This document shows positions 12,921 to 40,062 of a DNA stretch of 64,000 bases, piece after piece. How positions within the stretch are numbered: the first letter of the stretch is position 1; each line of letters starts with the position of its first letter. The stretch is taken from assembly GCA_029556545.1 (NCBI GenBank), contig JAKQEQ010000111.1, positions 1 to 64,000 on the forward strand, in the 5' to 3' direction. The stretch is from Candidatus Hydrogenedentota bacterium (GTDB lineage Bacteria > Hydrogenedentota > Hydrogenedentia > Hydrogenedentales > JAGMZX01). Position numbers and translations under genes: made by a program. The notes beneath the pieces are model-generated. The model worked only from the letters and a program-made list of their open reading frames with translations. It made no database searches and had not been told where the DNA came from.

Positions 12921-14147
12921 CTACCTGGCCCAGTCGCAAATAAGACTGCGCAACGCGGCAATGCCGGTGGGATGCTCTCGGAGAGACAGGCCGCAGTTCC
13001 AGTTGTAGATTGCGATGAAGCGGCAGTCCCGGAACGACAATGTCCGCTCGAAATTGGCCCGCCATGCCGCCTCTCCGTCTCCCTGCCACCACCACTCCAC
13101 CGCGGCCCAGCGTCCATCGCCCAGCGTGTCCAACGCGACGCCGAGCCCGTCCGCCGAAGCCGGGTCGGTGAAATAGAGGCTCCAGCCCGGCGTCGCGTGC
13201 GGCGTGAACGCCGGCCACCAGGGCAGGGTCTTGTCCCAGGGCGCGTGGTTGCCGCCCTGGTGGGTGTAGACGAGTTCGCGCGGCAAGCCCGCGGCACGCG
13301 CCTCTTCGGTCAACATAACGAGGTAGTCGTGAACGATGCGTGCGACGTCATCCCGAGTGAGTTCGCCGGAGTCTTTGACGCCCGAGACGGTCGCGGCGGC
13401 GTAGCCGAGAGGTTGCAGCCCGCCGTGCCATCCCTTCGTGAAATCCAAACCGTATGTCGGATCGTCCGCCACCGGTTTATCGGCAAGCGCGTTGCCTTGG
13501 GGATAGTAATAGGCGTTCACGCCAATACTCGCTTCATGTCCCAGCTTTACCCCACCGAGAAGCCATTGCTTGTCTTGGGGCAAGGCTCGGCGCCATGCGG
13601 CAATTCGGGGCAATAGCCGCCTGAGCGCTTCCTGATGCGCGGCAATTACGGCGGGACTCGCCATGTTCATCATGGGCGACACGCGAACCTGATGTCCCCA
13701 ATTGCGCCAGCCGATCTTGACGGCGAGTTCCGGCCCCCACCCGGTCCACTCGACGTTTCGACGGTTCTCAGGGTCGAATCCCGGCCCGTCGGGGTCCCAC
13801 CAATTCCACAAATCGGGGCGATGGTCCCACCAGTTCATGCCATCGAGATTGACCAGCACCGGAACGCCGGTTTCGGCGCTCAGGGCAAGGAAGCGGTCCA
13901 AGCTTTGCGCCACGTTGTCCAAGTCATAATTGAGGAAGTCGAATATGAAGGAAACACCCAACCGCAGCTTCGGATTCTCACAGGCACCGATGGTCTCGCG
14001 TATTTCGTCGAATCCGTCCCGCGTGAAGCTTTCCGGTTTGTCCGCGCTCCATGCGACGCCCGGCGCGTGATTGATGAATACGTATCGCGGCATGGCGTCG
14101 CCCGCGCATAACACCATCATCAATGCGCCGACACAATAGGACGCCAT
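12921..14147 (-). CDS. Secreted protein of unknown function, possibly TIM-barrel glycosidase-like
   Basis: A 408-residue protein I do not recognise. ATG 14147 is chosen: AGGAG lies 12 nt upstream and a signal peptide follows (MASYCVGALMMVLCAGDAMP). It is rich in Trp and Tyr and in strand-like blocks resembling a (beta/alpha)8 barrel: LRLGVSFIFDFLN, VPVLVNLDGMNWWD, WLLGGVKLGHEAS and RFIAIYNWNCG. Acidic residues at strand ends (LGHEAS, AAVEWWW) could be catalytic, so a secreted glycosidase-like function is possible but not shown. It converges on the operon to its left. Confidence 0.5.
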   Translation of the reverse strand: MASYCVGALMMVLCAGDAMPRYVFINHAPGVAWSADKPESFTRDGFDEIRETIGACENPKLRLGVSFIFDFLNYDLDNVAQSLDRFLALSAETGVPVLVNLDGMNWWDHRPDLWNWWDPDGPGFDPENRRNVEWTGWGPELAVKIGWRNWGHQVRVSPMMNMASPAVIAAHQEALRRLLPRIAAWRRALPQDKQWLLGGVKLGHEASIGVNAYYYPQGNALADKPVADDPTYGLDFTKGWHGGLQPLGYAAATVSGVKDSGELTRDDVARIVHDYLVMLTEEARAAGLPRELVYTHQGGNHAPWDKTLPWWPAFTPHATPGWSLYFTDPASADGLGVALDTLGDGRWAAVEWWWQGDGEAAWRANFERTLSFRDCRFIAIYNWNCGLSLREHPTGIAALRSLICDWAR

Positions 14148-24729: not shown

Positions 24730-25053
24730 TCACACGATACGCGCCCCCGAGTCGATGATTTCCCTGATGTAAGGGTCGGTTTCGTCGAAGTCGGACCGGG
24801 CGAAGGCGTGGGGCTCGATGCGAAGGTCGATGTCCCAGCGCAATCGCATCAGTTCGACGTCCTCTCGAAACCCGTCGATATCGTCTTGATCCAGGAATAT
24901 GGCCAGGTCGATGTCGCTGTCGGGCCGGGCCGCGCCCTTCGCGTGCGAACCGTATAGATAGATACGCCACACGGGGATACGGCGATCGTTCAGAAGTCGG
25001 ACATACCGGTCGATGATTCCGCGAATCACGCGGTCAATTTCGGTAACAGCCAT
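24730..25053 (-). CDS. MNT-type minimal nucleotidyltransferase (antitoxin-like)
   Basis: A 107-residue nucleotidyltransferase of the MNT class. The active site is complete: Gly35-Ser36 in YGSHAKG, Asp47 and Asp49 in SDIDLAIF, and a third acidic residue near Asp74/Asp76 (WDIDLRIEP). In HEPN/MNT modules such proteins act as antitoxins, at least in one studied case by adenylylating the HEPN partner. It overlaps the end of the HEPN gene by 28 nt. Confidence 0.88.
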   Translation of the reverse strand: MAVTEIDRVIRGIIDRYVRLLNDRRIPVWRIYLYGSHAKGAARPDSDIDLAIFLDQDDIDGFREDVELMRLRWDIDLRIEPHAFARSDFDETDPYIREIIDSGARIV

Positions 25054-25418
25054 TCCCTGAACTCCCTGATTTGCTCCATGTACCGCCGCGTAAACTGCTG
25101 GGTGGCCGTCTTGTAGAGCCTGTTCTTGTAATCAGGATACCTGGCCCGGATGTTGAACGTGGTCATTTCATCGAGAAAGGCCCGTTGCTCGACCGTCAAC
25201 GCAAGACCAGCATCCTGCGCTATCTTCAAGAGATTATGTATGCGTGGACACGAGCCCTCGATGTGCTTGGCATGATACGCCTTGAGGAGTTTTTCGATAA
25301 GCAGATGACCGACGAACAGCGCCCAAACATGATGGCCACCGGCGAAAAGACTTTCCATAGCTCTGAAGTCGTGTCCCGACGATTGGACCCAATACTGAAC
25401 GTGTTCATGTCGGGTCAT
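25026..25418 (-). CDS. HEPN-domain protein (toxin-like partner of MNT)
   Basis: A 130-residue all-helical HEPN protein. Recognisable stretches are HDFRAMESLFAGGHHVWALF, IEKLLKAYHAKH, PRIHNLLKIA and the ARYPDYKNRLYKTA block. I find no canonical R-x4-6-H RNase motif, so nuclease activity is uncertain; many PF05168 members lack it. ATG 25418 overlaps, as ATGA, the stop of a 36-codon reading frame that looks like a decayed glgC start. HEPN precedes MNT, the usual order. Confidence 0.83.
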   Translation of the reverse strand: MTRHEHVQYWVQSSGHDFRAMESLFAGGHHVWALFVGHLLIEKLLKAYHAKHIEGSCPRIHNLLKIAQDAGLALTVEQRAFLDEMTTFNIRARYPDYKNRLYKTATQQFTRRYMEQIREFREWLLPKLTA

Positions 25419-25525
25419 GAGCGGCCCCCAAATGGTAATCGAGTACGGCCAAGGGGGTTGACCCGCGCAACGGCAACATACCCTCTCGTTCCGACGCTGA
25501 CCTTCGATTGCAGGCGCTTCGCCAT
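25415..25525 (-). pseudogene. Decayed copy of the glgC 5' coding end
   Basis: A 36-codon frame starts at 25525 behind GGGAG at the same 9-nt spacing as glgC. Against GlgC residues 1-32 it aligns without gaps with about 10 identities: M, RLQ, T13, VA17-18 and TRL28-30. The glycine-rich nucleotide loop is lost. The stop TGA overlaps the HEPN ATG, so the remnant may work as a coupled leader. Fragment status is inferred from my hand alignment plus the matching upstream region. Confidence 0.55.
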
Positions 25526-25660
25526 GCCGCGATGCTCCCAAGTTAGCACGTACGCGCCGCAAGCAAGACGCACGCGCCACGTGAATTGGCGCGCTTATTC
25601 TACCTGCGCCCATTGCGCCGCGCCAGTTGGATGGAAGCACGTCTCCGCGCTACGGACTGG
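25526..25660 (-). repeat. Copy B of the glgC upstream region
   Basis: Same orientation and element order as 24485-24620: CTCCCAAGTT at 25535, GCTTATTCTAC at 25593-25603, GCACGTCTCCGCGC near 25637. Internal spacing differs by 6 nt. It likely drives the HEPN/MNT pair. From 25661 to 25750 I see only the GH-A gene leader. Confidence 0.6.
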
Positions 25661-28041: not shown

Positions 28042-28530
28042 GTGCAATGGGAATCTCCGAACGAAGCCAATGACGGACTCTCCGTCGAGGAGAGTGCGTG
28101 GCGGGCTCGGTTCCTGGACGATGTGCGCGACTTGTTCGAGGAACGGGACGTCGAGGTCACTCCGTTCATCGCGCGGGCGCTCGAGGAAATTGTGGCGCTT
28201 TCGATCATCAGTGCCCGCCTTTTTGCGGCGCTGAAAATGCTGACGCCGCTTCACCCCGAGGACAAGTCGCTGAATCGCGATTTCTTTGCCTGTGCCGACA
28301 TGCTGATGAAGGCCCTCGAAAAAAGGAGAAAGGCCGTGAGTGAACTGGAAGAAACCTGCGCGAAGGCGGGCACGCCGACCAAGCTCGGTATCGCGGACAA
28401 GATGAAGCCGTTGGTGCGCCAGGGGAGCGGCGTGATCGAACTGGCGATCACGAAAACCGTCCCGAAGCCGCCCAAGAAGGCGTCCCGCAAACCGAAGTTG
28501 ACATCGGGAGAGGCCGGCACGTTAAGCTGA
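28042..28530 (+). CDS. Helical protein, candidate small-terminase-like partner
   Basis: A 162-residue, highly charged, mostly helical protein I do not recognise. It starts at GTG 28042, 8 nt after GAGGG. Residues 20-115 read as amphipathic helices (LFEERDVEVTPFIARALEEI, KALEKRRKAVSELEET); the tail is Lys/Pro-rich. It is 4 nt upstream of a 3D-domain lipoprotein and 640 nt upstream of a terminase large subunit. Position, size and character suit a terminase small subunit, but that is a guess from context. Confidence 0.5.
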   Translation: MQWESPNEANDGLSVEESAWRARFLDDVRDLFEERDVEVTPFIARALEEIVALSIISARLFAALKMLTPLHPEDKSLNRDFFACADMLMKALEKRRKAVSELEETCAKAGTPTKLGIADKMKPLVRQGSGVIELAITKTVPKPPKKASRKPKLTSGEAGTLS

Positions 28531-28534
28531 GGCC

Positions 28535-28984
28535 ATGCGACGCGCCTTGACGGTCTCCATGCTCCTCATCGCGACGCTCGTGTTCGCGGGCTGCGCCACG
28601 ACGCGCATCACGCCGCCGCGCGGGACGCGCGCGGTCGAGCGCACTTTGCTCACAACCGGCTACTGCAGTTGCAAGAAGTGCTGTAACTGGAAGCGCAACT
28701 GGCGCCTCAAGCGAGTCGTCGCCAAGGGACCCAGCAAGGGCAAGCCCAAGAAGGTGGGCGTCACCGCGAGCGGCACGAAGGCGCGCCCCGGCACCATCGC
28801 GGCGGACACCTCGGTCTACCCCTTCGGTACCGTCATGTACATTCCCGGCTACGGGTATGGCCGCGTCGAGGACCGCGGCGGCGCGATCAAGGGCGAGCAC
28901 ATCGATCTCTTCTTCAAGAAGCACAAACAAGCCCTCGCCTGGGGCCGGCAGGAAAAGCGCGTGAAGGTATGGACGCCGCGCTAG
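28535..28984 (+). CDS. 3D-domain lipoprotein (MltA-like wall hydrolase domain)
   Basis: A 149-residue lipoprotein: signal with lipobox FAGC (Cys20), then a 3D domain. The three Asp that name the domain are Asp91 (AADTSVYPFG), Asp113 (VEDRGGAIKG) and Asp124 (HIDLFF). A Cys-rich start, GYCSCKKCCNWK, is typical of this branch. 3D domains occur in lytic transglycosylases and spore or phage wall enzymes acting on peptidoglycan. It begins 4 nt after the helical protein, in the line leading to the terminase gene. Confidence 0.85.
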   Translation: MRRALTVSMLLIATLVFAGCATTRITPPRGTRAVERTLLTTGYCSCKKCCNWKRNWRLKRVVAKGPSKGKPKKVGVTASGTKARPGTIAADTSVYPFGTVMYIPGYGYGRVEDRGGAIKGEHIDLFFKKHKQALAWGRQEKRVKVWTPR

Positions 28985-29019
28985 CCCCCTCTCCCTGAGG
29001 AAGAGGGCTGGGGCAGGGG
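28984..29019 (-). repeat. CCCTCTCCC-type palindromic repeat
   Basis: CCCCTCTCCCT/AGAGGG with a CTGGGGCAGGGGG flank, in reverse orientation to the two copies at 41660-41692 and 41764-41797. It overlaps the stop of the 3D-domain gene and may act as its terminator. Confidence 0.65.
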
Positions 29020-29053
29020 GTCACCGAATGTGGGGCGGGACGCCCCACCTCCC

Positions 29054-29089
29054 ACTCGTGCTCGTGCTCGTAACTCGTAATCGTAATCG
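29054..29089 (-). repeat. Hexamer array, CGANNN family
   Basis: On the minus strand this reads CGATTA CGATTA CGAGTT followed by ACGAGC units, the same family as 179-250. It sits between the 3D-domain gene and the terminase gene. Confidence 0.75.
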
Positions 29090-29101
29090 CATCGCTCTTC
29101 G

Positions 29102-29128
29102 TATGGACGATATGGACGGTATGGACGC
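29102..29128 (+). repeat. Three-unit 9-mer array (TATGGACGR)
   Basis: TATGGACGA TATGGACGG TATGGACGC, identical in unit to the start of the array at 17201. It lies 41 nt upstream of the terminase start. Confidence 0.8.
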
Positions 29129-29169
29129 CCCCCCGTCCTCTGATCAATTCAACCCTGCCGGAGACCCCC

Positions 29170-30639
29170 ATGCCGCTTCCCTGGAGCATTCCGCGCGCGC
29201 GGCGCGAACTGCGTCGGCGCGGACTCGCCGACGACGCCATCGACGCCTGGATCGCGCTGCACACGCGCGAGCGGTTCGCGGGCGACTACTTTCGTCGCGC
29301 GGACGGCGCGCCGTGGCGGGTGCGCGACTACCAGCGCGCGTCGATCGAGTCGTGGGCACGACGCAAAGTTCACTGCGACGGGCGCGACGTGGGCAAGACG
29401 ACGGAGATCGAAGTTGTCGCTTGCTGGGCGATGGTTGCGCTGCCGGACACGGAGATGCTGATCGCGACCCAGTGCGAGAACCACCTGTTTCCCTTGATGC
29501 ACCGGCTTCAGCGGCGGTTCAAGGCGACGCCCGAATTCGCGCCGTCGCTTGTCGAGATGAAGCAGTCGCCGTCGTGGTTCTTCCGATTCTCGAACGGGTT
29601 CCTGCTGTGGGGGCGCATCGCGGGGCCGCGCGGCATGAACTTCCAGGGATTGCACGTGGACTGGCAAATCGTGGACGAGGCGCAGGAGATGACGGAGACG
29701 GCCTGGGGCGAGTTGTACCAGGCGCTCAACGGGGACGGGCGGCGCTGGGTCTACGGCGTGCCGAACGGCCTGCGCAACACGTTCCATCGCATGACCCGGA
29801 TCCACGACGCCGAGCAGTATAACTGGCCGAGTTCGTTGAATCCCGAGTTCACGCCCGAAAAGGAAGCCGAACTGGCCGCGCTCTACGGTGGCCGCGCGTC
29901 ACCGGGCTATGTCCATCGCGTGTTGGGCCGCCACGGCGAGCCGGCGCACGCGGTATTCGCGCTCGATGATTACCTGGCATGCATCCGCGACGATTTTGAT
30001 TTCGTGGACGCCGTGGCGCACGAGGGAGACGATTTCGCGCCGCCCGCCGACGTTCCCGACGGGGAGTATTACCTCGGCTGCGACCTCGGTTTCGCGCGGG
30101 ACCCGTCGGAAATTGTCGTATACCGCAATGCGCCGCCGCATCTGATGAACGTGCTGCGACTGCGGCTCGACGGAGTCAACTACGCGAAGCAACAGGCGGT
30201 GATCGAGGCGCTCGACCGCGCCTATCGGTTCCGGCTTATCGGGATCGACGCCGGGAACAGCGGGCGCGCCGTGGCGCATCAACTCATGGCGCGCGACGAA
30301 TCGTGGTGCGCCCGCGTGCGCGCCTTCGAGTTCGGGGGAGCGACAGACGCGGGCGTGCTGCCCGACGGCAGCCGCGCGCGCAGGCGGGTCAAGGAACTCA
30401 TGACGGAATTGATCCAGCGCCGGATGGCGGAGCGAACCGTCGTGTTCCCGCCCATCGCGGATCGCGAGCAGCAATACGCGGCCCACACGTATTACGTCGG
30501 CCCGGATGGGCGCGTGGTGTACGAGAAGGGAAATGATCACCTCATCGACGCGGACCGTTGCGCGGCGCTGTGCCACTACCTGGATACGCAGGAAGACGAA
30601 GCGCCCTCCTCGTTGGGCATCGGGCTGGGGGTCTTCTGA
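29170..30639 (+). CDS. Terminase large subunit-like ATPase/nuclease
   Basis: A 489-residue DNA-packaging motor protein. The ATPase domain has the variant Walker A typical of terminases, GRDVGKT (71-77), and Walker B QIVDEAQEM with Asp169/Glu170. The RNase H-like nuclease domain has Asp305 (GCDLGFARD), Asp360 (GIDAGNSG) and Asp457/460/462 (NDHLIDADR). All key residues of both activities are intact, so the gene is not decaying. No portal, capsid, protease or tail gene follows; the next gene is a convergent lipoprotein. It may be a prophage remnant, part of a satellite, or a co-opted motor. Confidence 0.88.
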   Translation: MPLPWSIPRARRELRRRGLADDAIDAWIALHTRERFAGDYFRRADGAPWRVRDYQRASIESWARRKVHCDGRDVGKTTEIEVVACWAMVALPDTEMLIATQCENHLFPLMHRLQRRFKATPEFAPSLVEMKQSPSWFFRFSNGFLLWGRIAGPRGMNFQGLHVDWQIVDEAQEMTETAWGELYQALNGDGRRWVYGVPNGLRNTFHRMTRIHDAEQYNWPSSLNPEFTPEKEAELAALYGGRASPGYVHRVLGRHGEPAHAVFALDDYLACIRDDFDFVDAVAHEGDDFAPPADVPDGEYYLGCDLGFARDPSEIVVYRNAPPHLMNVLRLRLDGVNYAKQQAVIEALDRAYRFRLIGIDAGNSGRAVAHQLMARDESWCARVRAFEFGGATDAGVLPDGSRARRRVKELMTELIQRRMAERTVVFPPIADREQQYAAHTYYVGPDGRVVYEKGNDHLIDADRCAALCHYLDTQEDEAPSSLGIGLGVF

Positions 30640-39371: not shown

Positions 39372-39549
39372 AAAGGTGTAAACTCTGAAACCTTGGGCCA
39401 AGAAGTAAACTGTTTGCCGGCACGGACGTCGTGGCGGGCGTGCCCGTGCGGATAGTCCTGTTTCAGTGGTTGGCGCGAGTACGTCGTGCGCGCCGGGTGG
39501 AGTAGCGTCACGGTGTTGGGGATGCGGGCACGACAGGTACGGAGCGTGT

Positions 39550-40062
39550 GTGTTGGCGCGCAAACGAGACGAGATGGCTACCGGAGTCGAGACAAGAAAC
39601 GCGACCCGAGCCCCTGCGACAACGACGGACGGCGGCGTCCGGGTCGGTCATGGGGTCAAGGTGAAGCGAGGCCAGCTCACGGCGGTCCAGCAGGGCCGCT
39701 ATGGGACGGGTCCCGCCCCGTACGGGTATCGGCGCGGGAACATCGGCGAGAAACCCTTGCTCGTGGATGACCGCGAGGCGGAAGTGGTGCGCATGATCTT
39801 CCGCGAGTACCTGAACACGCGCAGTACAGGCAAAGTCGTCGATTACCTGCACGCGAAGAATGTCATGACCCGCAAGGGGAACAAGTGGTCCCGGCAGGCC
39901 ATCGCGATCATTCTGTCGAACCGGACGTATCGGGGCCGGGTAAGCTACGGCGACGTGGAAACCGAGGGGCTGCACGACCCGATTATCGAGCCCGCGCTCT
40001 TCTACAAGGCAAACGCCCTGAAAGAGCGAAAGCGGCGAAAGCGAAAATCCGCCCAAGCGTGA
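39550..40062 (+). CDS. Recombinase-domain protein lacking the serine-recombinase catalytic domain
   Basis: A 170-residue protein matching only the central Recombinase domain of large serine recombinases: GTGPAPYGYRRG, VDDREAEVVRMIFREYL, STGKVVDYLHAKNV, WSRQAIAIILSNRTYRGRVSYG. The N-terminal resolvase domain with the nucleophilic Ser and the C-terminal zinc/coiled-coil part are absent; the end is a Lys/Arg-rich tail. GTG 39550 has GGAG 5 nt upstream; ATG 39574 is an alternative. It cannot cut DNA by itself, so a DNA-binding role is likely (inference). A strong promoter argues against a dead fragment. Confidence 0.8.
   Translation: MLARKRDEMATGVETRNATRAPATTTDGGVRVGHGVKVKRGQLTAVQQGRYGTGPAPYGYRRGNIGEKPLLVDDREAEVVRMIFREYLNTRSTGKVVDYLHAKNVMTRKGNKWSRQAIAIILSNRTYRGRVSYGDVETEGLHDPIIEPALFYKANALKERKRRKRKSAQA

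Follow-up and report, generated by a model that had tools for sequence, protein, structure and literature searches.

Gene transfer agents (GTAs) have been demonstrated in a small number of lineages, and a terminase that stands alone in a genome is usually taken as prophage debris. GTAs are viriforms that are recognized by six criteria: Caudoviricete-derived proteins that build particles resembling tailed phages; complete endogenization in the host, often at multiple loci; inheritance that is mostly vertical, in step with the host; packaging of mostly random host DNA; inability to package their own genome in full; and delivery of DNA to other cells (PMC9662315). Alphaproteobacterial type I GTAs, RcGTA among them (Rhodogtaviriformidae), comprise phage genes endogenized at multiple loci, are passed on by vertical descent, and retain an intact large terminase, TerL (PMC6854486, PMC9662315, PMC11841831). 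Small terminases (TerS) of the GTA type are short and almost all helical, with one conserved helix and no DNA-binding domain, and are encoded just upstream of terL (PMC6854486). The terL gene of RcGTA lies inside the structural cluster (PMC6854486), and a search of Bartonella genomes demanded that TerL and the major capsid protein (MCP) be encoded no more than 5 kb apart (PMC9662315). A TerS-TerL pair with no other recognizable virion genes at its locus is found in NitKor-E1, one integrated element that has an integrase and occurs in one genome, that of Ca. Nitrosopumilus koreensis (PMC6563490).

The locus analyzed here lies in a 64,000-nucleotide stretch of DNA from a Candidatus Hydrogenedentota bacterium (the window). 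Its TerL is intact and of vertical descent, as in type I GTAs, and as in NitKor-E1 it is accompanied by a putative TerS with no other recognizable virion genes at the locus. However, in contrast to NitKor-E1, the Hydrogenedentota TerL is encoded by a core gene found across the phylum, and its locus has no integrase. The locus probably belongs to a vertically inherited, multilocus GTA-like system in which the terminase is separated from the head-tail cluster. On genomic criteria, this proposed system is termed GTA-like rather than GTA. Our literature search found no paper joining GTAs with Hydrogenedentota, and the head-tail cluster that is shared across Hydrogenedentota families is unreported.

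The three genes that a previous sequence-only reading of this DNA had named are real, and all are on the + strand. They encode p162, a charged helical protein of 162 aa (28042..28530), a lipoprotein with a C-terminal 3D domain (28535..28984; Pfam 3D, E 4.5e-18), and TerL (29170..30639; PHROG terminase large subunit phrog_2, E 7.6e-18). The flanks of the terL locus are ordinary host genes. The description of a packaging motor without a virion is accurate locally, in that none of the portal, capsid, and tail genes of the head-tail cluster was found in the window or in the remainder of the contig (C142; 110.9 kb), but relatives with the same core TerL hold the cluster elsewhere. No integrase was found at the window terL locus. 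The contiguous lysogeny, replication, and virion genes that mark a prophage are absent from the window locus, the whole contig, and the corresponding locus of sister genome G001. The latter genome has the same locus but no prophage at the site; a full prophage there had been named as an observation that would refute the sequence-only reading.

The catalytic residues of TerL are conserved. In the 49 core copies aligned, Walker A (GRDVGKT, residues 71-77; 29380..29400, + strand), including residues R72 to T77, is invariant save for T77S in two copies. Walker B Asp169-Glu170 (29674..29679, +) and the nuclease residues Asp305 (30082..30084, +) and Asp360 (30247..30249, +) are present in all 49. 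The third nuclease motif, Asp456 to Asp460 (DHLID; 30535..30549, +), retains both aspartates in 49/49 core copies and 65/65 viral relatives. Thus, the ATPase and nuclease residues previously listed are present, except that Asp457 should be Asp456, residue 457 being an invariant His. A fold search with a low-confidence structure model of TerL (pLDDT 65) recovered terminases of T4 (gp17), D6E, and HK97, with E values of 9e-13 to 2e-9.

The C terminus of the core TerLs differs from that of their viral relatives. The ending TxP(V/I)F(I/V), present in 53 of 65 viral relatives, was found in 0/49 core copies, which for the most part have a hydrophobic tail with Phe at its end (F is among the last four residues in 44/49). 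This altered tail is possibly a changed portal-docking peptide. Gln159, which aligns with the arginine finger of P74-26, was considered as a mark of domestication, as all core copies have Gln at this column versus R/K in 65/65 viral relatives. This interpretation was rejected because phage L279 has the same Gln and because the position of the arginine finger differs between terminases (PMC5727402).

Of the 68 Hydrogenedentota genomes, 57 have TerL, as do 37 of the 38 good ones, compared with 58/68 and 35/38, respectively, for RecA. Host families f1, f6, f9, and f10 and a genus-level f11 group emerge as groups in the TerL tree, and f3 and f4 are near its base, roughly as in the RecA tree. TerL therefore shows the mostly vertical inheritance and codiversification with the host that characterize GTAs, a pattern that for the cluster genes was compared in a few genomes only. 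The suggestion that the locus is a satellite remnant is disfavored because the descent of TerL largely follows the host families. A satellite would be expected to form a mobile island with an integrase and packaging-redirection genes and to be sporadically distributed, whereas TerL is near-universal, mostly vertical, and without an integrase at the locus. The gene content flanking terL varies between families.

The dN/dS of TerL, which had been proposed as a check, is 0.12 between the window's genome and the sister genome, and values for close pairs are mostly 0.04 to 0.18, rough figures since synonymous sites are partly saturated. TerL is under purifying selection and is almost certainly a domesticated host gene. 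G008, the sole good genome in which TerL is missing, retains the lipoprotein but has no p162.

A profile for p162 found this protein in 52 of the 68 genomes, mostly encoded directly upstream of terL. No match to p162 was found in the family databases Pfam and PHROG. Its AlphaFold model is helical (pLDDT 75) with no recognizable DNA-binding domain, and the suggested structural comparison with small terminases gave no significant fold match in a search against the PDB and viral models. The sequence is poorly conserved apart from a RERLRKA helix. In its position and behavior p162 is consistent with a small terminase of the GTA type as defined in the literature; the TerS of RcGTA is a short helical protein without a DNA-binding domain that is encoded just before terL (PMC6854486). 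We designate p162 a putative GTA-type small terminase on these grounds. Additional p162-like genes are scattered in G047 and G055 (L265-L271) and in G016 (L272); none adjoins terL, and several encode proteins with a proline-rich tail; no p162 was found beside terL in G047 or G055.

The lipoprotein presumably acts on the cell wall, as indicated by its 3D domain and conserved Asp residues. It is single copy in 42 of the 68 genomes, and Cys20, Asp113, and Asp124 are invariant (35/35). In the window its gene stands between p162 and terL, but it is often unlinked to terL and in many genomes is on another contig, including cases in which the p162-terL pair is present. When conservation of the trio was evaluated, p162 and TerL were mostly found together, but the whole trio was conserved in only part of the phylum. 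The possibility that the three proteins form one functional unit is weakened by the many genomes in which the lipoprotein is unlinked and by G031 and G022, in which p162 is undetectable and TerL is fast-evolving, on a long branch (branch 1.87; dN/dS 0.31), while the lipoprotein is ordinary.

Relatives of the window's genome possess a head-tail cluster. That of G014 (family f11) consists of ten genes in the same orientation, which encode, in order, a portal, a protease-like protein, p240, a decoration protein, the MCP, an adaptor, Dit, a tail protein of 587 aa, a baseplate-like protein, and p133. The cluster ends ca. 1 kb before the core terL, and the lone intervening gene is an oppositely oriented esterase gene. 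G012 (family f4) has the identical ten-gene order, with two small genes interspersed, 47 kb from terL, and G029 (f4) has seven of the cluster genes in order ca. 13 kb from terL. Genes for the portal and protease-like protein are present at a contig end in G031, as are those for the decoration protein and a neck protein in G016, 8 kb from terL. The MCP matches phrog_3922 (E 5.6e-54) and PF25209 (E 1.2e-15), the portal matches phrog_3753 (E 2.5e-46), and Dit is also recognized (E 3e-13). These head and portal families (PF25209/phrog_3922 and PF06074/phrog_3753) differ from those of RcGTA. No tape-measure protein was recognized in the cluster, and inspection by eye revealed no integrase, replication gene, or prophage-type regulator beside the clusters. 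A 164-aa gene of the G012 cluster was considered as an endolysin gene and dropped, as it had no Pfam match. Directly upstream of the portal and protease-like genes of G031 are genes for a DNA methyltransferase and a Vsr-like endonuclease, identified by eye (L120, G031:C41, 2562-4305).

The cluster diverges about as TerL does. MCP identity is 73% for G014 and G012, 69% for G014 and G029, and 77% for G012 and G029; TerL identity for the same pairs is 61 to 62%, below that of the MCP (69 to 77%). The finding of cluster genes in five genomes, drawn from ca. 2.7 Mb of stretches, many of which were chosen near terL, suggests that the cluster may be universal in the phylum. In the window's genome, for which the terL contig and a few other stretches were read, the cluster is absent from the 110.9-kb terL contig, and we infer that it is carried on another contig.

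Scans of the phylum with common portal and capsid models yielded few matches (PF04860, 5/68; PF05065, 8/68; PF05133, 0/68; phrog_2739, 1/68; phrog_2522, 3/68). These results first suggested a virion-free terminase, but the conclusion that no virion is kept in the phylum was a false negative because the families were the wrong ones; G014, G012, and G029 do carry a head-tail cluster. The cluster was located with the phrog_3753 portal profile from L279, which matched a stretch of G031, and a gene neighboring that match led to G014. L279 is an uncultivated tailed phage in IMG/VR; among the viral TerLs found, its TerL is the nearest, with 37% identity, and is followed by the phrog_3753 portal. Both L279 and another such phage, L346, encode homologues of the portal and protease-like protein of the Hydrogenedentota cluster; L346 also encodes homologues of the decoration protein and MCP downstream of TerL, portal, and protease-like protein. 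In both phages terL directly precedes the portal gene, unlike the usual arrangement in Hydrogenedentota, and it therefore seems that in Hydrogenedentota the terminase has parted from its head module. The usual position of terL away from the cluster likewise differs from that in RcGTA. p162 is not recognizable in either phage. IMG/VR scans of viral contigs found no close relatives of TerL, of the G031 portal, or of the MCP. Phage records contained only distant TerL relatives (21 to 30% identity), matches on plasmids were distant and partial, and a scan of defense families (PADLOC) revealed nothing notable.

Like GTAs, which are fully endogenized and often at multiple loci, the proposed system has terL/p162, the lipoprotein gene, and the head-tail genes at separate host-flanked loci, an arrangement judged across relatives, with the terL locus alone seen in the window's genome. 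Homology to particle proteins of Caudoviricete origin is evident for TerL in the window; in relatives, the portal, MCP, and Dit are among the proteins that show it. Full packaging of the system's own genome would be unlikely given its dispersal over several loci. The most likely scenario is that an ancestor of Hydrogenedentota domesticated a phage-derived system that has since been passed on vertically. TerL and p162 would be the packaging subunits, with p162, as a TerS lacking a DNA-binding domain, loading TerL onto host DNA without sequence choice. TerL would then cut the DNA, dock on the portal of a head encoded by the unlinked cluster, and pump in a headful. The terminase is thus envisaged as working together with the head-tail cluster to form particles that would carry host DNA. 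Wall-acting proteins, possibly including the 3D lipoprotein, may aid release.

It is also conceivable that TerL has lost its phage partner and now serves the host without a capsid, as a DNA translocase-nuclease docking on a different partner in the cell, and that the head-tail cluster of relatives is unrelated to it. Such an exaptation would account for terL standing alone with p162 in most genomes, for several long-contig genomes in which no cluster was found within about 20 to 100 kb of terL, and for a TerL C-terminal tail unlike that of phage relatives. However, the cluster belongs to the phage lineage with the nearest TerL, its order is kept between deeply separated families in genomes carrying the core TerL, and the TerS-like partner has been kept as well. 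The earlier proposal of a co-opted, virion-free function is weakened, as at least five genomes that carry the core TerL also hold a head-tail cluster of the matching phage lineage. We consider capsid-free exaptation unlikely. Hijacking of packaging, in which a terminase of the host or of a satellite would load host DNA into the heads of infecting phages for defense or piracy, is more improbable still. Phages with related terminases do occur with these hosts, as on contig C119, and NitKor-E1 provides a precedent for a TerS-TerL pair without other virion genes (PMC6563490). Yet TerL is mostly vertical, phylum-wide, and single copy, with no integrase; its C-terminal tail is unlike those of co-occurring phages such as that on C119, and it has no defense-family match.

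The absence of virion genes at the locus is what a decaying prophage would leave, but TerL is conserved across the phylum, evolves under purifying selection, and has invariant active sites, which makes this origin scarcely credible, and most terL loci have no conserved phage genes in their flanks. For similar reasons, the gene-transfer relic suggested in the sequence-only reading comes closest of its options as regards gene transfer, but not as regards a relic, because TerL is phylum-wide, catalytically intact, and under purifying selection.

If confirmed, the dispersed GTA-like system would be a further GTA domestication, apparently an independent one, in hosts other than those known, split so widely that gene-neighborhood rules miss it, and would offer a route, open to testing, by which uncultured bacteria could exchange genes. 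More tentatively, and with the balance tilted somewhat against it, the whole, almost uncultured phylum could possess a functional GTA as widespread as RecA, with a motor split from the head-tail cluster and a compact particle that lacks a recognizable tape-measure protein. A split motor of this kind would possibly permit separate control of packaging and assembly.

Other phage-related genes are present in the window's assembly. A small island at 5326-11917 of L004 (G000:C66:14000-33900) encodes a second TerL (42% identical) along with an HNH endonuclease, a sigma-like protein, and a homologue (38%) of the adaptor of the G014 cluster; no capsid or portal was found in the island. Similar isolated second TerLs are present in G015 (C187) and G060 (C343). 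The C119 contig (L005, G000:C119; 5 kb) is that of a genuine phage, with a TerL that is 36% identical followed by a phrog_2739 portal. In the window, an ARAGORN tmRNA call at 13658-14117 (+) has an unusual tag peptide and may be a false call. A 198-aa serine-recombinase-like open reading frame at 39466-40062 (+), 9 kb from terL and with no phage neighbors noted, matches Pfam Recombinase (E 4.7e-19) and a PHROG integrase (E 1e-34), but only the inner part of the integrase profile, and is probably a fragment. Missing from the matching place in G001 is a pair of overlapping genes at 24730-25640 (−), which, as read by eye, encode an MNT-like nucleotidyltransferase and a HEPN-like protein and may form a toxin-antitoxin pair.
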